NCBI GenBank assembly: GCA_948146395.1
Contig: OX411543.1
Coordinates: forward strand, 66,847,474-66,911,473
Source of the DNA: Fragum whitleyi
Lineage: Eukaryota > Mollusca > Bivalvia > Cardiida > Cardiidae
Reading direction: 5' to 3'
DNA length: 64,000 bases
Below, one piece after another: positions 11,111-60,560 of this stretch. The position numbers and the translations under genes are program-made. The first letter of the stretch is position 1; the number at the start of each line of letters is the position of its first letter. Below the pieces are notes generated by a model. It ran no database searches and was not told where the DNA came from. It worked only from the letters and a program-made list of their open reading frames with translations.

Positions 11111-11128
11111 CATCTACATCTACATCTA
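11111..11128 (-). repeat. possible 3' terminal microsatellite of the LINE
   Basis: Three copies of CATCTA on the plus strand (GTAGAT on the element strand), about 160 bases after the RT stop codon. Its position suits a LINE 3' end. Confidence 0.5.
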
Positions 11129-11285: not shown

Positions 11286-12851
11286 TTATACAAGATTGAC
11301 TGCCGCTAGTCTTTCGGAGAATATGCCGAGACTAGGGCTGGACTTGACACTAGTTGGTAGAGTGTCCCACTGTTTCACTGTCCTGGGGAAAAAGGAATTA
11401 GTGAAGTATTGGGTCTTTGAGAACGGAATAAGATAGTTAAGATTTCTTGTTTGTATAAGGTGACTGTTATCTACAGCTATTGTACCGGCTCTGATTTTAT
11501 AAAATAGTATGAGGGAATTATGTAGCCTTCTTTCATGTAGGGATTTCCAGTTAAGGGTGTTAATCATTTGGGTGACACTATTGGTGTAGTTGTAGTCATT
11601 CATGACATACCTAGCTGCTGATCTTTGCACTCTTTCGATATTATGGGAGAGGGTTTTTTGCCAGGGATGCCATATGCATGAGCAATATTCTAATTGAGGT
11701 CTAATATATGTGTTATAGGCAGCAGTTTTGACCTGTTTGTTATTGGTCCGTACGTTTCTTTGGATGAAGCGGAGGGTTGATGTTGCTTTTGATGTGATGT
11801 TTTCTATGTGCTTAGACCAATTTAAGTCAGAAGTGATGGTGACACCTAGATACTTGGCTGCATTGGTTGCCTTTAGTTCTGTATTATGAAGTTTGTAAGG
11901 GTAGATTAGTGGATGTCTCTTCCTCGTTATTCTTAAAATTTCACACTTATCAGGGTTAAATTCCATTGACCAGGTTCTCTCCCAGTTTTCTAAGTTATGT
12001 AGATCTTGCTGAAGGGATAGGGTATCATTTTTTGTGTGGATGGTTAAGTAAACAATAGTATCATCGGCAAACATTCTAGCGTTACATTTGACTGAATCTG
12101 GGAGGTCATTAATGTATATGAGGAAGAGACAGGGGCCTAGAACTGATCCCTGAGGGACACCAGAAAGAACTGGAAGTTCACTGGAAAATTGACCTTCTAC
12201 AGCAACTCTTTGGGAACGATTACTAAGGAAAGATTTGATCCAGTTGACAATTTGAGGGTTTATACCGAGTTGCTGTAGTTTGAACAAGAGGGAAAGGTGG
12301 TCCACTTTGTCAAAGGCTTTAGAAAAATCCATGACAACAACATCAGTTTGATACCCAGATTCCAAGTTGTTGAATAAATCCCTAGTAAAGTTAAGTAGTT
12401 GGGTTTCACAGCTGTGGCCTGAACGAAAACCATGTTGGAATGGACTGAGAATACTGTTTTTATCGAGGTAGGACATAAGATTTGAAACAATGATATGCTC
12501 TAAGAGTTTAGACGCAATACAGGTAAGGGAGATGGGTCTGTAATTACTGGGCTGGGACTTTTGGCCTTTTTTGAAGACTGGAGCTACAGTGGCTTTCTTC
12601 CAGTCTTCAGGGACAATACCAGTGCGGAGCGACAAATTAAAGATTTCTGCAAGGATGGGGGCTATTTCGTGGCTAAGTTCTTTCAGAATTCGGGGGGATA
12701 TCTCGTCGGGCCCACTTGCCTTATGGGGTGATAATCCTTGAAGGAGTTCTTCTACTCCACAGGTGGTGACCACAATTTCGTTCATGTTTGTGTTTGCAGG
12801 TTTAAGTATCCTAGAGCATAAATGTGACAGACTGAGGGGTTTTGGGGGGGG
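11286..12851 (-). CDS. LINE polyprotein, 3' part: reverse transcriptase (separated by frame change)
   Basis: About 520 codons from the C8 run to the stop at 11286. The frame is open a little further upstream (to 12917) but begins there with GTG and overlaps the end of the previous frame, so it has no start of its own. This is the second half of one protein. Motifs in order: NYRPISL, FQHGFRSGHS, motif A VVMDFSKAFD (catalytic D), motif B SGVPQGSVLGP, motif C FADD (catalytic pair), then thumb-like sequence and a C-terminal FFPRTVKQWDTLP block. All three catalytic acids are present. It would copy the element RNA at the nicked target. The break means this copy probably makes no full protein unless the ribosome slips or the C8 run is an assembly error. 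Confidence 0.86.
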   Translation of the reverse strand, partial: PPPKPLSLSHLCSRILKPANTNMNEIVVTTCGVEELLQGLSPHKASGPDEISPRILKELSHEIAPILAEIFNLSLRTGIVPEDWKKATVAPVFKKGQKSQPSNYRPISLTCIASKLLEHIIVSNLMSYLDKNSILSPFQHGFRSGHSCETQLLNFTRDLFNNLESGYQTDVVVMDFSKAFDKVDHLSLLFKLQQLGINPQIVNWIKSFLSNRSQRVAVEGQFSSELPVLSGVPQGSVLGPCLFLIYINDLPDSVKCNARMFADDTIVYLTIHTKNDTLSLQQDLHNLENWERTWSMEFNPDKCEILRITRKRHPLIYPYKLHNTELKATNAAKYLGVTITSDLNWSKHIENITSKATSTLRFIQRNVRTNNKQVKTAAYNTYIRPQLEYCSCIWHPWQKTLSHNIERVQRSAARYVMNDYNYTNSVTQMINTLNWKSLHERRLHNSLILFYKIRAGTIAVDNSHLIQTRNLNYLIPFSKTQYFTNSFFPRTVKQWDTLPTSVKSSPSLGIFSERLAAVNLV

Positions 12852-14733
12852 AGAAAACGGACTCAAATTGTTTGTTGAGGATGTTGGCTTTGGAGACCGG
12901 GTCGGTATATATGACACCCTCTGATTTTAAAGGGGCTATGCCAACATTCTCTTTCTTGTTATGTTTGATATAAGTGTAAAATTTCTTATTCCTGCCTGGT
13001 TGGGAGTCATGGTTAAATATGATGTTTTCCATGTATGACCAGTAAGAAGACCTTATCAATTTTTGGATGGTAGACTTAAGGGACTTTAACCCTTCTTGCC
13101 TACGAGTATCGAACTTGTGTTTGAGCTTTGAATAAAGCTTATCACGCTTATGGATAAGTCTTTTCAGTTTAGGGGTTATCCAAGGCAAGTCAGCACGTGG
13201 CTTGCAGATCTTTGTTGGTATGTGCTTGCTACAGGAGTGGTTGAGGCTATCCTTAAATGACACCCAGGCTTTGTTAGGGTCATCATGATTTGTTTGGAAA
13301 AAATTACAGGAGAAATTGACCATGTCTGATTTGATACTGTCCCAGTTTGTTTTCTTGTAATTTCTAATTGGACGCCTAGGCTGTAGGGGGCGACCCCGGT
13401 TTAATTTAATTTCATGGAAAATTATGTCATGGTCTGAATTTGCGAGACTGGGAAGGGACTTGGTTTGGTGTACGATAGACGGGTGGCTAGTGAAGAAAAG
13501 GTCCAAGGTGTTATTTTGCCTGGTAGGGATTTTGACCATTTGCTCAAGATTGTGATGGGACATATTTTCAAGGAAATCTGCGTAGAAGGATCTATTCTTG
13601 CAGTTATCTTTAATTGATTCCCTGTCCCAATCAATGTCGAGAAGGTTGAAATCACCCAGAAGCCAAACAATACTGTCTTTTGGGATCTTATGGAGGGAGG
13701 ACCACAATTCTTTGAGAGATGACGTGTCCAATTCATGGGGCTTATAAAAGGTTCCAACAAAGATATTGCGGATGCCTGGTAGTCTGATTTTGGACCAAGA
13801 AATGTTACAGCTTGTTTTTAATTCAGGCTGGTCTTGGCTAAATAGGGATTTGCTAATAGCTACTATTACACCTCCTCCTTGGCCGTCACATCTATCGTCC
13901 CTGTATATGTTAAAATTGAGGTTGTCAGGGAAGATTTCGGAGGAGCATGTTTCAGGTTTTAACCATGTCTCAGTGAGACAGACAATATCGGGCTTTACCT
14001 GCTCAATTACTTGATGCAAGTCAGGTATTTTATTTCTGACTGACCGACAATTCACATTAATAATCGTTATACGTTCAGAATTCTTAAGCTTTGTTGGTTT
14101 GGGTTTGGGCTTCAGTTGGATAGGGGTGGAGGTATGTTTGGGAGACACAGATGGCATACTGGAGTTTTCAAGTGTTCCATTGGGGTCTGGCAGGTTACTG
14201 AGGGGCCAGTAAAATGAAGTGTCACTTAATGTATCAAGTGACTCAGTAAGGAGATGGTGAAAATTTGATGAACCACACAAACAGCAGTACCAACTAACTT
14301 TGGAATCTGAGAGCCTATCATAGGTAGAGTCACCTATACCCTCGCAGTTAATATGGAACCAGGTGTCACAATTGTTGCAGCAAATACCTTTGTGGGACCA
14401 AGACACATTCACATTACAAAGTCCGCATGGGTAGTTGGAGTGTTCATCAGCACTGGATGTTGAGATGTTTGTTGGCCCTGGGTTGGGCTCAATATCATAT
14501 GTTTCACTGGCTAAAAGGCAGAACAGAAAAATAAGTGAACTGACTTTGGAGTTTGCATCACATCGTTTATGTGAGATGACATGTTTGAAAACATTAGTGA
14601 GTGAAGCTCCAATAAGGCTACGGTATGGCACAGCAGTGTCACAGAGAAGAATATTCTCATTAATTATCTTAGGTGACAATCTAATAGCAAGCACAATGGT
14701 AAAAATCATAAGTAAAGTAACTTTAAAGTCCAT
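12811..14733 (-). CDS. LINE polyprotein, 5' part: leader, 2A motif, PHD finger, endonuclease
   Basis: About 640 codons. I start at the first in-frame ATG (14733): the frame is also open from a TTG at 14763, but a TAA precedes that and a TTG start is unlikely in an animal. Residues 3-19 are strongly hydrophobic (FKVTLLMIFTIVLAIRL), like a signal or anchor, and a second hydrophobic run is at about 64-76. DIEPNPGP lies at 80-87, the 2A ribosome-skipping consensus, predicted to separate G86 from P87. A C4HC3 PHD-type finger follows (C103, C106, C119, C122, H127, C130, C150, C153). The APE-like endonuclease spans about 220-440 with NVNCRS (N228), TETW (E255), GDFN (D361, N363) and SDH (D434, H435), the expected catalytic set for nicking target DNA. 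The frame runs out at 12811 just after the C8 run, and the reverse transcriptase continues in the next frame. Confidence 0.88.
   Translation of the reverse strand: MDFKVTLLMIFTIVLAIRLSPKIINENILLCDTAVPYRSLIGASLTNVFKHVISHKRCDANSKVSSLIFLFCLLASETYDIEPNPGPTNISTSSADEHSNYPCGLCNVNVSWSHKGICCNNCDTWFHINCEGIGDSTYDRLSDSKVSWYCCLCGSSNFHHLLTESLDTLSDTSFYWPLSNLPDPNGTLENSSMPSVSPKHTSTPIQLKPKPKPTKLKNSERITIINVNCRSVRNKIPDLHQVIEQVKPDIVCLTETWLKPETCSSEIFPDNLNFNIYRDDRCDGQGGGVIVAISKSLFSQDQPELKTSCNISWSKIRLPGIRNIFVGTFYKPHELDTSSLKELWSSLHKIPKDSIVWLLGDFNLLDIDWDRESIKDNCKNRSFYADFLENMSHHNLEQMVKIPTRQNNTLDLFFTSHPSIVHQTKSLPSLANSDHDIIFHEIKLNRGRPLQPRRPIRNYKKTNWDSIKSDMVNFSCNFFQTNHDDPNKAWVSFKDSLNHSCSKHIPTKICKPRADLPWITPKLKRLIHKRDKLYSKLKHKFDTRRQEGLKSLKSTIQKLIRSSYWSYMENIIFNHDSQPGRNKKFYTYIKHNKKENVGIAPLKSEGVIYTDPVSKANILNKQFESVFSPPKTPQSVTFML
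12844..12851 (-). other. C8 homopolymer at the LINE frame break
   Basis: On the coding strand eight C lie between TTTTCT and AAAACC, exactly where the endonuclease frame and the reverse transcriptase frame cross. A one-base length change of the run accounts for the break. It may be a mutation, a sequencing or assembly error, or less likely a programmed slip. Confidence 0.75.
14473..14496 (-). other. 2A-type ribosome-skipping motif (DIEPNPGP)
   Basis: The codons for D-I-E-P-N-P-G-P fit the D(V/I)ExNPGP consensus exactly. It is preceded by the hydrophobic stretch SSLIFLFCLLAS and then ETY. 2A-like motifs are documented in APE-type non-LTR elements of sea urchins and molluscs. Predicted products are an 86-residue hydrophobic leader and a PHD-endonuclease-RT protein starting with proline. 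Efficiency here is unknown; the residue just before D is Y rather than the common G. Confidence 0.8.
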
Positions 14734-14790
14734 ATTTGGAGATGTATTTGTGAAAGAGGGCAATTAGATATCAGTTGTCCGAAAATTGGT

Positions 14791-16127
14791 ATTATCCGAG
14801 TACTGGTACAGTTGCATGAAGACAAGATTTCACCTGAACTGTGAAGATTTATTCAAAATAAAGGTCTCACAGTTTGTTATTGGTTAGTTATCTTACTAAT
14901 AGGCTTACCACCACCAAAAAGTATAGCATAGAAGAGACTTTAGAAAGAAAATAATTAAATTTGGTGAAGAGGTTCGAAAACAGGAAGTGACTCTTTCCCG
15001 GCGTTCACACACCTATCACAATCTATGTTTAGGTGTTCCAGTCCACAGGCGATTGGTTCACAATCCAAATTTCGTCTTATAGGTTTTTATATATTGACAT
15101 GTATGACAAAACTCGGATTATAAAAATCGCCTGTGCTTCAACCACCGCGATTTTACAGATAAATTATTGATAGCGGCGTTCATCCCTATTAAAACAAAAT
15201 CCACAAGAAAGGTTTTACATTTAAAACACGTGTCGTCTTGAAACCCGTCTCGAGACTACTGTCGCATGTTGAAAAGTTATGTAAAAGCCCTATTGCATAG
15301 ATGCATAGATGTACGGTTGAAGTAAATACAGGAGTCACGACCTAGAAACTTATAATATTCCAGCAAATTACTACAAGTTACAATAGCGAGGACTTAGGTC
15401 GTAAACATAGTATGTGTCTATACAGTGTATAGATACAAACCTTGTTTTTGCTCTAAACTCTCGATAAGCGTACGCGAATCATTAACTCGCCCGATTGAAT
15501 ATTTTAACTTCATTTTAAATTGAAAGGGAAATTTTGCATTATATTCACATGTTAAAGAATTCTAGTAAATTCACGCCATAAACGAAATAAACAATGATTT
15601 TGAAAAATAATAAATTGAGTCTTATTGAGTCGAAGCTAATAAGAACCTACCAGGTGTTTTTTACGTAGTAACACTGGTGGATGAAAACTTTTTTCACCAG
15701 CAATAGAATACTTTTTTGTGAGAATTTACTGTACATTGGGTTCCAACGAAATATTTTTTAAAATAAATTCTTAAATCATTCACTATCATTTTAGTGATAA
15801 TTCATTTTGTAAAACGGTAAAAAAATCAGAATTTGATATGACCCATTGTAATTTCGATAACATTATGTTAACGATGTTATTCCCCATTGAGATACGTGCT
15901 TAAAATATTGTTAAATGAGTGTACTGTAGATATAAAATCATCTAACGAATTTGTATGTATACATTACTTTTATTAGGTTATTTGATGTTATATGTTTTAC
16001 TCCTAAAACACTTTTCAACAATCCATAAGTCCTCCTTGATTTACCATACATGATACATACATGATCGTCTCATAGAATGGACAATCTTTTGAACGCTACT
16101 GCGGAGACTGACTAGGTGAACACTTAC
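14791..16127. other. anonymous DNA, possibly including LINE 5' UTR at its left edge
   Basis: No coding frame or repeat end was recognised. The first few hundred bases may belong to the LINE. Confidence 0.4.
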
Positions 16128-23284: not shown

Positions 23285-23824
23285 TGCAGCAACAAAAGAT
23301 ATCTAAATGCTTGAAATTTCCTAAGTACTGAGTAGAGGACTTGTACTATTTGTGTAGCGAAAACAAAAGCGCTGATCAGGTTTGTGGTTTATTGCCAAGC
23401 TGATCTTCATTTTTGTTTTTACTTTCAATGGCAAATTGTTGGTTTTCTCACACAGTGGCTAAAATGGAAATAAGATATGCAAGGGACAAGCAAATAAATG
23501 CAGTGGACCAACTTACATGTATATTTTGACATTTGTTTCAAATGCTCCTTTCATATATTTGACTTCAAAAGTGCATTTCAATTCAAAACAGGTGGGTGGT
23601 TAACTTTACCATACCCTTTTTAAGAGCTGGGTAAACAATACTATAAGCTTATGACAAACAAAACAAAATAAGCTTTCTCATGATGAAACCGACATTTTTC
23701 CTGACTAGGTAATACACACCAACCTGTACACACCAAAAAATAGCTAGAGGCTTGAAGTTTCGTATTCAGAAAGCAAAGGAATTGTACTATCATTTGGGTC
23801 TTTTTTTCTGCAATGCAAATTGTT
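23285..23824 (+). repeat. two diverged copies of a ~170 bp dispersed repeat
   Basis: Shared phrases in order: ATATCTAAATGCTTGAAATT / AATAGCTAGAGGCTTGAAGT, then GGACTTGTACTATTTGTG / GGAATTGTACTATCATTTG, then GCAAATTGTTG. A third copy is at 26195. Identity unknown; no coding signal. Confidence 0.6.
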
Positions 23825-24325
23825 GCTTTTCCCATGAGCGAGCTCAAATACTGCCCATTGTTGTGTTCATGTAAATTTTGTTGTTCATAGACAAACAAGC
23901 CATCTTTTACTAGTCATGTTCTTTTTACATTTTATATCACAAGTTTACCCCCGTTTCTAAGATGAATGTTGAATTTTTCTTGATTGTATATGCTTTTCCC
24001 ATGAGCGAGCTCAAATACTGCCCATTGTTGTGTTCATATAAATTTTGTTGTTCATAGACAAACAAGCCATCTTTTACTAGTCATGTTCTTTTTACATTTT
24101 ATATCACAAGTTTACCCCCGTTTCTAAGATGAATGTTGAATTTTTCTTGATTGTATATGCTTTTCCCATGAGCGAGCTCAAATACTGCCCATTGTTGTGT
24201 TCATATAAATTTTGTTGTACATAGACAAACAAGCCATCTTTTACTAGTCATGTTCTTTTTACATTTTATATCACAAGTTAACCCCCGTTTCTAAGATGAA
24301 TGTTGAATTTTTCTTGATTGTTGTA
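23825..24325 (+). repeat. 3 x ~167 bp tandem repeat, almost identical units
   Basis: TGCTTTTCCCATGAGCGAGC begins units at 23825, 23991 and 24158. Units differ at only a few sites (for example CATGTAAA versus CATATAAA, and one one-base gap). The array starts inside the second copy of the neighbouring dispersed repeat, so it probably grew by unequal exchange or replication slippage there. Confidence 0.9.
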
Positions 24326-24825
24326 TACATTTGATTATATCATGTGAACCTTGTCTAGAATGTGCTGTCAACTTATTCTGATTTTTCAATATGTTTGATT
24401 CACAGCCATCAACTAACACTCCATGACCAAATCAGAAAAATAGTGAACAAATAATGTTTGTTTACAATAGCAAAGTACCAGCCTTAGAAAGAACAAGATG
24501 TTCTAGTGCTGGAATTGCAAAAGCTTCCATTGTAAGGTATATCCTCAAAACTCGGATAAGCACAGACTGCATGTGTACTGCATAACATACACCATAATTA
24601 TTGTACTTACCGTTTCAGGTTTCCAAACCAATGTGTCAGTAAGTGTGTTATGCAAAGTCATCTATTTGTTTTTACAAAATGCATTGTATTCATTAATAAA
24701 AGAAATTGCTGTTTAAAAAATGTTCATTTTCATTTAACCCCAAAATCTAATTAATGCCAATAAACAACAGACAATGACTCCCTTCAAGGAATTTAATCTT
24801 AAAAGAGCTTTTGCCGATGCTTTCA
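24326..24825. other. anonymous DNA between repeats
   Basis: No gene or structure recognised. Confidence 0.4.
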
Positions 24826-26029
24826 CAAAACTAGAAAGCCATGAATGGCTTGAGTCGCTCCACAGGCTTGAAATTCTTGTAAAAGCAAATAAATGTTTTG
24901 ACTAGATTTTTAGATATTTGGGGTTCTACTGATGTTGAAAATGATTTTCAAAGTTTGAACTAAATACAGAATAGAGAAATGACTTCCGCTCTTAAAAGAC
25001 ATATTTCTCATCAAATCAAAATGAATTTTGGCTGCATGATAATGGGTCACACAAAGATCATACCAAAACTTTTGATTGATATCCATCAGTTACATTCTGA
25101 GAAAATGATTTTCAAAGTTTCCAAAATTTAACTCATTGAGAAATGACCTCCACCCATAAAATGCATATTTTTCATCCAATCAAAATAATTTTTGGTACAC
25201 TGATAAAGGGTCACTCAAGGATCATTCCAGTGAAATTTGGTTGGTATCAAAATATTAGATTCTGAGAAAATGCTTTTCAAAGTTTCCAAAATATAACATA
25301 TGGAGAAATGACCTCTGCCCATAAAATGCATATTTTTCATCTGATCACAAGGATTTTTTGTAGACTGATAAAGGGTCACCCAAGGATCATTCCAGTGAAA
25401 TTTGGTTGATATCCATGAGTTACTTTCTGAGAAAATGATTTTCAAAGTTTCCACTATATAACATATAGATAAATGACCTCCGCCCATAAAATGCATATTT
25501 TTCATCCGATCACAATGATTTTTTGTAGACCGATAAAGGGTCACTCAAGGATCATTCCAGTGAAATTTGGTTGATATCCATGGGTTACATTCTCAGAAAA
25601 TGATTTTCAAAGTTTCCACTATATAACATATAGACAAATGACCTCCGCCCATAAAATGCATATTTTCCATCCGATCACAATGATTTTGTAGACTGTTAAA
25701 GGGTCACCCAAGGATCATTCATGTAAAATTTAATTGGTATCCATTGATTAGAATCTGAGAAAACTCATTTTTTACCATATTTGGAAATTAGCCACGCCCA
25801 TTAAATCCATGTTTGTCATTGGATCAAAATTTCTTGAACAACTTTGAAAGAGGGTCACCCAAGGATCATTCCTGTGAAGTTTGGTTGAAATCTATCCAGT
25901 AGTTTCTGAGGAGAAGATTTTTAAAGAAAAGTTTACGACCGGACGGACGGACGCACGCACGGACGGACGGACGGACGCACGACGGACACAACGCCATGAC
26001 AATAGCCCCAGTGGCTTTCAGCCAGTGGA
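24826..26029 (+). mobile_element. modular hairpin/CTAA element H1 (pearl/Helitron-like, non-autonomous)
   Basis: Left end ACAAAACTAGAAAGCC with a small hairpin (AGCCATGAATGGCT), then GAGTCGCTCCACAGGCTTG. The core is a tandem array of about six units with a 165-base period: AATGATTTTCAAAGTT or a close variant at 24939, 25104, 25269, 25434 and 25599, then a diverged unit. An ACGG/ACGC microsatellite follows at about 25936-25990. The right end is an imperfect hairpin AGCCCCAGTGGCTTTCAGCC ... AGTGGAG closing with CTAA at 26025-26029. Left arm, tandem core, ACGG microsatellite and right arm is the layout described for bivalve pearl elements, often grouped with Helitrons. No replicase is encoded. 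Confidence 0.75.
25936..25990 (+). repeat. ACGG/ACGC microsatellite of H1
   Basis: An interrupted run of GGAC and GCAC tetramers between the tandem core and the right terminal hairpin. Confidence 0.85.
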
Positions 26030-35426: not shown

Positions 35427-35958
35427 TTAGCTCACCTGGGCACAACGTGCTCAAGGAGAGCTTCTAGTTACAATCTTATAAACTTCTTCTTCACCTGAAC
35501 CACTCGGCCGATTTCAATGAAATATTACCAGAATGTTCCATATGTGACCCTTTTCAAAATTGTTCGCAAAATATTGATTGGTCCATAGATATGGGCGTGC
35601 GTCGCATTTTTTCACTTGGAAATCTTTTAACGATATCTCCTGAGCCACTGGACCGATTTCAATGAATCTTTACCCGAATCTTCCTTTGGAAATCCTTTTT
35701 AAAAAATGTTCGCAAAATTTTGATTGGACCATAAATATTGGTGTGGCAGGGCAGAGCTTATTTTGAGCCCGAAATCTTTGAACGACATCTCCTCCTGAAC
35801 CACTGGGCCGATTTCAATGAAACTTTACCAGAATCTTCCTTTGGAAACCCTTTTCAAAAAATGTTCCCGGTATTTTTATTGGCCCATAAGTATTGTCGTG
35901 GGAGGGCGGGGCCAATAAGGTTCAGGTGAGCGGTTTATGACCCTTTTAGCCCTCTTGA
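35427..35958 (-). mobile_element. modular hairpin/CTAA element H4
   Basis: On the minus strand the right end is a hairpin (stem AGCTCTCCTTGAGCAC / GTGCCCAGGTGAGCT, loop about 3) closing in CTAA at 35430-35427. The core has three modules of about 145-155 bp, each with CCGATTTCAATGAA (35508, 35653, 35808), GACCCTTTTCAAAA-like and TTGGCCCATAAGTAT-like phrases. The left end on the minus strand is TCAAGAGGGCTAAAAGG, then CGCTCACCTGAAC. Compact at about 530 bp. A 63-codon frame inside is incidental. Confidence 0.7.
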
Positions 35959-46439: not shown

Positions 46440-47639
46440 GTTGACTAACAAGGATTTTCTATAATTGATTTCGTGACCTAGTTTTTTACCCCAGATGACC
46501 CAATTTCAATCTAATCCGAGATTTCACCAAGACAATCATGCTGACCAAATTTCAGGTTGATTGGGCAAAAATTGTAGCCTCTACAGTGCAAACAAGGTTT
46601 TTCCTAGATTTGACCCTGTAACCTTGTTTTTGACCCAAGTTGACCCAATTTTGAACTCGTTCGAGATTTCATCAAGACAATCATTCTGTTTAGATTTCAG
46701 GTTGGGCGGGCAAGAAATGTGGCCTCTAGAGTGCATACAAGGTTTTTCTTAAAGTTAACCCTGTGACCCAGTTTTTGACTCCAGTTGTCCCTATTTCAAA
46801 GTCGTTTGAGATTTCACCAAGACAATCATTCTGACCAAAATTCAGGTTGAACGGGCAAAAAATGTGGCCCCTAGAGTGCATACAAGGTTTGTCTGAGATT
46901 TGACTCCGTGCCCTAGTTTTTGACCCAATTTCAAACTCGTCCGAGATTTCATCAAGACAATTATTCTTACCAAGAATTCAGGTTGAACGGACAAAAAATG
47001 TGGCCTCTAGAGTGCAAACAAGGTTTTTTCCTAGATTTGACCCTGTGACCTAGTTTTTGACCCCAGTTAACCCAATTTCAAAATCGTTTGAGATTTGATC
47101 AAGACAATCATTCTGACCAAATTTCAGGTTGATTAGGCAAAAAATGTGTCAGGAAAAAAATGTTTCTTAAATTTTACCTCGTGACTTAGGTTTCATTAAG
47201 ATAATTATTCTGACCAAAATTCAGGTTGAACGGGCAAAAAATGTGGCCTCTACAGTGCAAACAAGGTTTATTTAAGATTTGAACCCTCGACCTAGTTTTT
47301 GACCCAAGTTGACCCGATTTCGAAGTCGTCCGAGATTTTATCAAGACAATCATTCTGACACAATTTCAGGTCGAACGAGCAAAAACTATGGCCTCTAGAG
47401 TACATACAAGGTTTTACTAAGATTTGACCCTGTGACCTAGTTTTTGACCCCAGTTGACCCAATTTTGAACTCGTCCGAGATTTCATCAAGACAATCATTC
47501 TGACCAAAATTCAGGTTAAACAAGTAAAAATGTGGCCTCTAGAGTGCATACAAGGTAAATGTTGCGACGGATGACGGACGACGGACATCCACCTAACCAC
47601 AATAGCTCACCTTGAGCACTTCGTGCTCAGGTGATCTAA
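46440..47639 (+). mobile_element. modular hairpin/CTAA element H5 with eight ~145 bp units
   Basis: The phrase TCAAGACAATCATTCTGACC or a variant marks units at about 46531, 46676, 46821, 46956, 47103, 47203 (shortened), 47345 and 47490. Each unit also has TTGACCCTGTGACCTAGTTT and GTGGCCTCTAGAGTGCATAC. A GACGGAC-type microsatellite follows at 47565-47587, then the terminal hairpin AGCTCACCTTGAGCAC / GTGCTCAGGTGATCT and CTAA at 47636-47639. The left end is not resolved. Confidence 0.75.
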
Positions 47640-59205: not shown

Positions 59206-60560
59206 TTTTAGCTCCTTTTTAGCTCCCAAGGGCAAACTCCCCAAGATGAGGAATTGTGATCGATGAATGTCCGGTGTCAGACCTTCTGTCCCTCCGTCCG
59301 TTAGCCTGTCTGTCAACAATTTTAAGTGCATCTCCTCTCCTCAAAAACTATCCAACAGATTCCAACCAAACTTTACAAAATGAAAGGTTAAGCAATTCCA
59401 AAATATTACGCAGAATCGGAATCTATATAAAGCTCTTGTTGTCATAGCAATGGATCCTTAGATCAAGCTATTCCAAAAGCTCTGGTTACCATAGCAACCG
59501 AGTGAAATAAAAAGCGTAAAACACCGTCTCCTTCAAAGCTTTAAGACGTATGGCATAAAGTTGTTCAAGGCCAATTTACCATAAAAACTTAAAATTATTG
59601 CTATATCTTAGACCTATGTTATAGGATCCCGGATAAGAATGGCAAAATGTATATATAAAAAATGTCCTAAACAAAAATGCGTAAACCAAAGATATTATAT
59701 ATGCCAAAAAAGAAAAACACTCAAATGTATTTCTCTATCTTGAAAATAACCCCATGTCATGGAGTCCTTGATTTAGTATAGAAATAAATCTTAAAGGTCT
59801 GTGGAAATAAACTTCTTTTACCAAACCAAAATGCTTACACTATGATTTATTTTGAACGACTCATGGCCTAAAACCCTTTGCCAGGAAATTTGAAAGTTAA
59901 TTATCCAACTTGATTATAAGTCCTATGTTGTGGGGTCCGGTATTTTACATAGAATAAAGAAAGGATTCTAAAAGATTATTTTTTTACCTCGAAATTATAT
60001 AACTTACTACTTTTGTAGTTTAAAGGACACATACTTTTTATACCATTGAGCAAAATAAAAGATGAAATAATTGTGCCAACTATATTTTAAGGCCTGTGTT
60101 GCAGGATGCATACTTTTAAGCAGTAATAAAGAATTAAACACCAAGAATCTTCTCTTTCGGAACAACAGGCCTTATATCTTTTATATTTTGCATATAGAAC
60201 TGACTTATACACATATAATGATTTTTAAGCAGTAATAAAGAATTAAACACCAAGAATCTTTTTGTCGGAACAACAGGCCTTATATCTTTTATATTTTGCA
60301 TATAGAACTGACTTAGAGACATAAAATGATTTTTTTTTAAATTTAGGCCAATGATGGTATCATTACCTGTGGACAAGATCAAAGAAGCAAATGTGGTTTA
60401 CTGCCATTTTCTGCTTTAAAATGGCATTGATTTTTATGTCAAATATGAGCTTGTAATATGAATAAGGTTGAAGTTGGAAATCTTTCGTTCGCAGATTAAA
60501 ATTCCGAAGACCGACAGACAGACAGACGGACAGGCAGGCAGACAGACAGACCGAATGACA
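59206..60560. repeat. module array with inverted microsatellite ends
   Basis: Begins TTTTTAGCTCCCAAGGGC (a CTAA-type end on the minus strand), then CCCTCCGTCCGTTAGCCTGT. Units of about 145-180 bases carry CATGTCATGGAGTCC (59753), TATGTTGTGGGGTCC (59931) and TGTGTTGCAGGATGC (60096). Ends in GACAGACAGACGGACAGGCA at about 60518-60550. Same unit family as 53.4-54.4 kb. Confidence 0.6.
60114..60330 (+). repeat. recent 109 bp tandem duplication
   Basis: CAGTAATAAAGAATTAAACA at 60121 recurs at 60230. The two units are nearly identical (TCTCTTTCGG versus TTTTGTCGG and a few changes). It lies inside the module array. Confidence 0.9.

Follow-up and report, generated by a model that had tools for sequence, protein, structure and literature searches.

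The window analysed here, a 64,000-nucleotide stretch of the Fragum whitleyi genome, contains on its minus strand a non-LTR retrotransposon (Table 1). This identity had been put forward in an earlier note on the DNA and is borne out by the presence of both an APE-like endonuclease (EN) and a reverse transcriptase (RT). Positions 14733 to 14473 of the minus strand translate to 87 residues, which end in ...FLFCLLASETYDIEPNPGP and form the start of a 640-aa frame. They comprise a leader of 79 residues with two hydrophobic runs, as the note had described, followed by DIEPNPGP; across all six reading frames, NPGP appears nowhere else in the window. The main start codon is flanked by A at -3 and G at +4, and the 5' UTR of the window copy includes two short uORFs (13 and 17 codons; positions -196 and -84). 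A separate ORF1 is absent from full-length copies, in which only two short uORFs lie upstream of the leader.

Table 1. Coordinates of the element's features in the window, with the observations on which each is based
Feature	Position	Strand	Observation
5' UTR	14734..15011	-	8 of 10 family copies compared begin alike, about -277 to -280 from the ATG (~279 bp)
640-aa frame (leader, 2A, PHD, EN)	12811..14733	-	ATG to stop; closes early, frame break near 12.83 kb
h1, signal-like hydrophobic segment at the N terminus, aa 5-17	14683..14721	-	13-aa Kyte-Doolittle (KD) mean 2.55 (L046)
h2, hydrophobic segment immediately preceding the 2A core, aa 64-76	14506..14544	-	KD 2.42 (L046); no change at L73 and L74 across 8 aligned sequences
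2A/StopGo core DIEPNPGP, aa 80-87	14473..14496	-	Predicted break between G86 and P87
PHD finger, aa 103-153, C4HC3 spacing	14275..14427	-	PF00628, E 1.7e-4, 22 bits, just below the cut-off of 24
APE-type endonuclease, about aa 220-445	13399..14076	-	PF03372, E 3.9e-8 at aa 226-435
Reverse-transcriptase frame, 499 aa from first ATG	11286..12785	-	PF00078, E 5.5e-39
3' end, (TAGATG)n tail	11111..11128	-	Exact string in 4 of 10 copies (window, L047, L048, L044)

The note had further proposed a single PHD-endonuclease-RT protein. This holds for three intact copies (L046, L047, and L048), whose reading frame runs uninterrupted for 1148-1150 aa from the ATG and encodes leader, 2A, PHD, EN, and RT, but not for the window copy, in which the RT lies in the next frame because of the frame break. 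The PHD finger was compared with Pygopus PHD chains, for which the best E value was 6.6e-8. In a fold search the EN filled the matches listed and the PHD finger was not among them, and a second protein search returned no match at E 0.01 or better.

A protein search of the 1.22 Gb assembly (38 contigs) returned at least 70 matches on many contigs, many of them beginning part-way into the protein. Copies of the window family are mostly 95-99% identical and many are 5'-truncated; most other matches in this search are 49-59% identical. Copy numbers are lower bounds, since scoring covered 69 of the 3895 candidates from the genome search. Copies are bounded by the 5' UTR start and a short-repeat tail. 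Among the ten family copies compared, the 5' ends of L046 and L027 are truncated inside the 5' UTR, and the exact tail string is not found in L046 and L049, both of which reach the 3' region, while the other four loci end before it. Taken together, the intact copies, the shared 5' end, and the high identity among copies identify the element as a young, single-ORF APE-type non-LTR retrotransposon that has been recently active in an animal genome, and of which the window holds a frame-broken copy.

Two further features were observed in this family and its surroundings. In L005 and L027, an extra block of ~190-290 bp with inverted ends (ATGCCCCCGA...TCGGGGGCAT) is found at the same point of the 5' UTR, about -28 to -19 from the ATG. 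Additionally, tandem arrays with periods of 108-167 bp are present elsewhere in the window, at 23824-25771, 35494-35908, 46473-47556, and 60114-60334.

The octapeptide DIEPNPGP had been read as a 2A consensus, and it does match the core (D/G/C/N)(V/I)ExNPGP. Rather than being absent from most related copies, the core is intact in 24 of the 27 that keep the region. These 27 are the copies, among 70 matches, that span the 2A region; L040, L041, and L045 were left out, as their matches begin after the core and the leader is unreadable. Within the window family, 13 of 14 copies keep the core as DIEPNPGP, and the remaining one (L010) is frameshifted inside it. In copies of other families (~50% identical), the core is intact in 11 of 13 in the form DIE(T/L)NPGP, including the copy at C1:18417515-18419398 (partly seen as L053), and L035 and L043 have one substitution each. 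Stop codons are present in the loci of the three copies without an intact core, but also in those of L014, L022, L037, and L039, which retain the core, and therefore the presence of a core in a given copy is in itself no proof of use.

Among the first 100 residues of six complete leaders from six families, only M1, L73, L74, D80, I81, E82, N84, P85, G86, and P87 are invariant; an eight-row alignment, two rows of which lack the N-terminal part, leaves the same core residues together with L73 and L74. The codons of the core nevertheless differ synonymously among seven families. NG86 pN/pS is 0.20-0.56 for h2 and 2A together (21 pairs), which is similar to the PHD finger (0.15-0.51) and near the EN (0.16-0.32), in comparison to 0.65-1.17 for the mid-leader (15 pairs), although these ratios are rough because synonymous sites are close to saturation. 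Judged by these substitutions, the core is under coding constraint. A reading of the leader as a misread 5' UTR was rejected on the grounds of that constraint and of full-length copies that start upstream of the leader.

Leaders were collected from 36 database proteins and six families of this genome (the window's included), each with a core and a leader of at least 55 aa; shorter leaders, mostly truncated, were left out. Segments counted as h1 were those that lie more than 25 residues ahead of the skip glycine and have a 13-residue Kyte-Doolittle mean of 1.6 or higher. Far from lacking in most related sequences, a segment of this kind is present in 35 of the 42 leaders and absent in seven, and in the rest of the proteins 7.5% of equal-length windows on average reach the threshold. 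For L046, the h1 value is reached by a fraction of 0.000 of equal-length windows in the rest of the protein, and the AF2 model has a helix at residues 3-19 (block pLDDT 73-75) followed by aa 20-62 with pLDDT under 50 and no confident fold. The first run of the window copy itself falls at the same residues as in L046. In P0031, P0049, and P0032, h1 begins further in, at residue 31-52. Conservation of h1 at the level of individual residues is loose (pN/pS 0.29-1.17). Shuffling of the leader residues reaches the h1 value in 9.7% of cases for the window family and in 0.2-3.2% for the other five families, which share ancestry, and two of the five alternative frames of L033 match h1 in hydrophobicity. 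The mid-leader has a positive net charge in 31 of 36 rows, in which the window and L046 represent one family. The flanking-charge difference is below zero in 25 of 36 rows, zero in five, and above zero in six; no orientation is claimed for h1 because this result is mixed.

The spacing between h1 and the core is relevant to when each could act. The strongest h1 segment ends 55-114 residues before the skip glycine (median 78), and P0038 and P0055 have a further, weaker hydrophobic segment that ends 39-40 residues before it. The ribosomal exit tunnel holds roughly 30-40 residues. Therefore, h1 should be outside the tunnel before skipping, while h2 would be inside it at the moment of predicted skipping.

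A profile search identified 178 proteins at E 1e-10 or better, of which 120 were used. Hosts among the matches listed include Mercenaria, Ruditapes, Pinctada, Mytilus, Glandiceps, and Amphiura. NPGP is present in 46 of these 120 listed proteins, two of which (P0113 and P0121) are without a 2A-like core. Among the proteins listed that have a PHD pattern (P0003 left out), 41 have a 2A-like core before the PHD finger and 15 do not. In a tree of 41 sequences, built from the relatives found here only, 34 sequences spread over the main branches have NPGP; two clades (P0016-P0018, and P0026 with P0028) lack it, and in the single sequences P0029 and P0062 it is altered. Three observations on individual relatives can be added. 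P0113 and P0121 are more distant LINE proteins, in which N-terminal hydrophobic stretches are followed by NPS(M/I)xNPGP, in which the acidic residues found in a 2A core are missing. P0003 (Mytilus galloprovincialis, 499 aa) is a predicted gene in which the PHD finger and EN start of the element are fused to an unrelated signal-like N-terminus, possibly by capture or through a gene-model error. Finally, P0016-P0018, P0026, P0028, and P0100 lack the 2A and keep the hydrophobic segment, with a Met between this segment and the PHD finger, near the usual place of the 2A.

A Met at most 36 aa before the PHD finger is found in 13 of the 15 PHD proteins without a core, versus nine of 35 with a core and a PHD finger at least 60 aa in. 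Six of the 13 simply start at such a Met (P0021, P0061, P0068, P0079, P0087, and P0094), one (P0029) is a variant close to 2A, and the remaining six comprise P0016-P0018, P0026, and P0028, which fall into two clades, and P0100, which was not included in the tree. For these reasons, a switch of 2A-less relatives to an internal start is a lead only.

The core is also widespread in the genome at large. The pattern D(V/I/M)ExNPGP occurs at 503 sites and the reversed pattern at none, and a chance motif was rejected on this comparison. Twenty sites were sampled (every fifth of 100 among the 503), and downstream of these were a PHD-type pattern (7), a cut-off PHD start (1), an endonuclease-like start directly (4), or other sequence (8); the non-PHD classes were assigned by eye, and some of the eight are coiled-coil-like. 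Three of the non-PHD types sampled, L059, L062, and L063, are other 2A-bearing LINE types of the same genome, with leaders of 51-53 aa that have no hydrophobic start of the h1 kind.

Two aspects of these sites were noted separately. L059, L060, L062, and L063 share a leader start like MG(V/I)(D/N)I before the 2A. Outside the window, near the end of contig C2 (G000:C2:99943958-100101728), ten 2A core sites with identical 23-mers lie on one strand at a spacing of 16.6-20.4 kb, the last of them ~14 kb from the contig end, as a tandem array in which each unit has a 2A site. A coiled-coil-like stretch follows the 2A in both of the units sampled (L068 and L069).

2A-like cores in the ORF of APE LINEs were reportedly described by Odon et al. 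in 2013 and Luke et al. in 2014 for the CR1, L2, L2A, Rex1, Crack, and Ingi clades, where their presence is said to correlate with one ORF and several are said to be active in vitro. The window element likewise has a 2A-like core in an APE LINE ORF, together with a conserved signal-like segment that ends 55-114 residues before the skip bond. None of the matches listed in the literature searched, whose coverage excludes most subscription papers as well as Odon et al., Luke et al., and Rao et al., deals with a LINE in which a signal-like leader precedes the 2A. With its PHD finger upstream of the EN and no separate ORF1, the element falls under the Type IIIA single-ORF PHD LINEs, which include L2 subgroup 4 and CR1 subgroup 6 (Metcalfe & Casane 2014, PMC4120745). 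It shares an N-terminal PHD finger and an apparent single ORF with these elements, and its layout resembles that of PHD-bearing CR1/L2 elements of the Jockey superfamily. The top match of the L2_4 PHD finger is 2vpb (PMC4120745), which is Pygopus 1 in the PHD comparison made here. In the available text of that paper, the words transmembrane, hydrophobic, signal, 2A-like, ribosome, and skipping do not occur.

The nearest parallel for a leader of this type is the sea-urchin SpNLR2A, in which an N-terminal hydrophobic sequence likewise ends in a 2A core (PMC4981915). The SpNLR2A leader is reported to have a dual role as signal and recoding site, whereas both roles are only predicted for the window element. 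Moreover, the sea-urchin leader has 26 aa, with signal and 2A as one stretch, in contrast to 79 aa and a separate h1 that is predicted to clear the tunnel, and the downstream protein is an NLR rather than a LINE enzyme (PMC4981915). 2A in one-ORF APE LINEs, single-ORF PHD LINEs, and 2A-linked signals are known; the conserved long signal-like leader is a new variation on these within the literature searched.

In comparison to viral StopGo/2A sequences (F2A and others), the window element has the same core, D(V/I)ExNPGP, and both residues that are essential in F2A, D12 and N16 (PMC12846837). The residue before the core D (p11) is Y in the window family, and the upstream hexapeptide, LASETY, fits by eye no named upstream motif class of that source. 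Among 20 relatives with the exact core, p11 is G in ten, S in eight, F in one, P in one, and Y in none, and among the 20 sampled genome sites it is G in 11 and Y in none. Viral 2A sites with D at p12 have a strong preference for G at p11, and the upstream context can be essential (PMC12846837). The window family thus has Y where G is usual for p12 = D, together with a hydrophobic run upstream, and from these comparisons the Tyr is the weak point of the skipping predicted for this family.

The recurrence of leader and 2A in many relatives suggests that the leader is made and then released before the enzyme. On this reading, the element is probably a single-ORF LINE with a detachable leader, consisting in order of a signal-like segment, a spacer that evolves fast and is mostly basic, another hydrophobic run, and the StopGo/2A core. 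From the observed layout, conservation, core constraint, and spacing, we infer that skipping takes place, that h1 is read as a signal, and that the leader has a purpose of its own. At NPG|P, the ribosome would free the leader as a peptide of ~86 residues, and translation would resume at P87 to give a PHD-endonuclease-RT protein that begins with Pro. As this protein would carry no signal, it is expected to stay cytosolic and to be able to enter the nucleus. Since h1 would be clear of the exit tunnel before skipping, it could act first: it may be read by SRP or inserted in a membrane, so that the leader is membrane-inserted, or the ribosome and element RNA are docked at the ER, before the enzyme is released.

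Several other explanations were considered. The leader could serve as nascent-chain context for the 2A only, with h1 incidental, the freed peptide waste, and the 2A trimming an untidy N-terminus. The nearly unconstrained mid-leader and the loosely conserved h1 are in keeping with this, as are the other LINE types of the genome that pair 2A with short leaders lacking h1. However, most leaders have h1 despite its distance from the skip bond, and because it ends beyond the tunnel it is unlikely to be tunnel context; furthermore, the six 2A-less relatives P0016-P0018, P0026, P0028, and P0100 still have a hydrophobic segment. This explanation is consequently rated unlikely. A similarly doubtful proposal is that the freed leader stands in for ORF1p, as a small basic membrane-associated peptide that would aid RNP assembly or localisation. 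For the esterase ORF1p of a zebrafish L2 element, roles at membranes have been put forward (PMC3905857), and both the absence of a separate ORF1 and the prevalent positive charge of the mid-leader would fit, although the spacer sequence turns over fast and aa 20-62 have no confident fold.

Incomplete skipping offers a third explanation, along the lines of the membrane targeting of unskipped protein raised in the note, in which the skipped product would be cytosolic, the unskipped fusion would go to or into a membrane, and the ratio would be set by the sequence before the core. Such dual targeting has been demonstrated in HeLa and plant cells with the sea-urchin protein SpNLR2A6 (PMC4981915), and the non-canonical Y at p11 could lower skipping efficiency. 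On the other hand, a retrotransposon has no known reason to place an endonuclease-RT in a membrane or the ER lumen, and relatives with G or S before the core have the same leader layout as the window family. We regard it as improbable for this element. It is very improbable that the motif has no recoding activity and is a product of chance or a peptide in decay, since its unusual Y-D context is outweighed by the excess of core over reversed sites, by synonymous turnover beneath an invariant peptide, and by the spread of the motif across the tree.

Within the preferred reading of a detachable leader, a more specific and rather speculative version is that the leader localises its own RNA. In this case, h1 would take the ribosome and mRNA to the ER or nuclear envelope, StopGo would free the enzyme on the cytosolic side beside its template, and membrane pull might modulate skipping; in 2A-less sub-clades, a nearby start codon would make a leaderless enzyme instead.

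StopGo has been described as rare in cellular sequence (PMC12846837). If the cores found here are genuine, they occur on a large scale in one animal genome, with 503 sites, of which the sampled ones are mostly in LINE-like frames. A conserved, detachable, membrane-type leader would, if confirmed, offer a concrete answer to how single-ORF LINEs function without an ORF1 protein, and it would link LINE biology to co-translational targeting.
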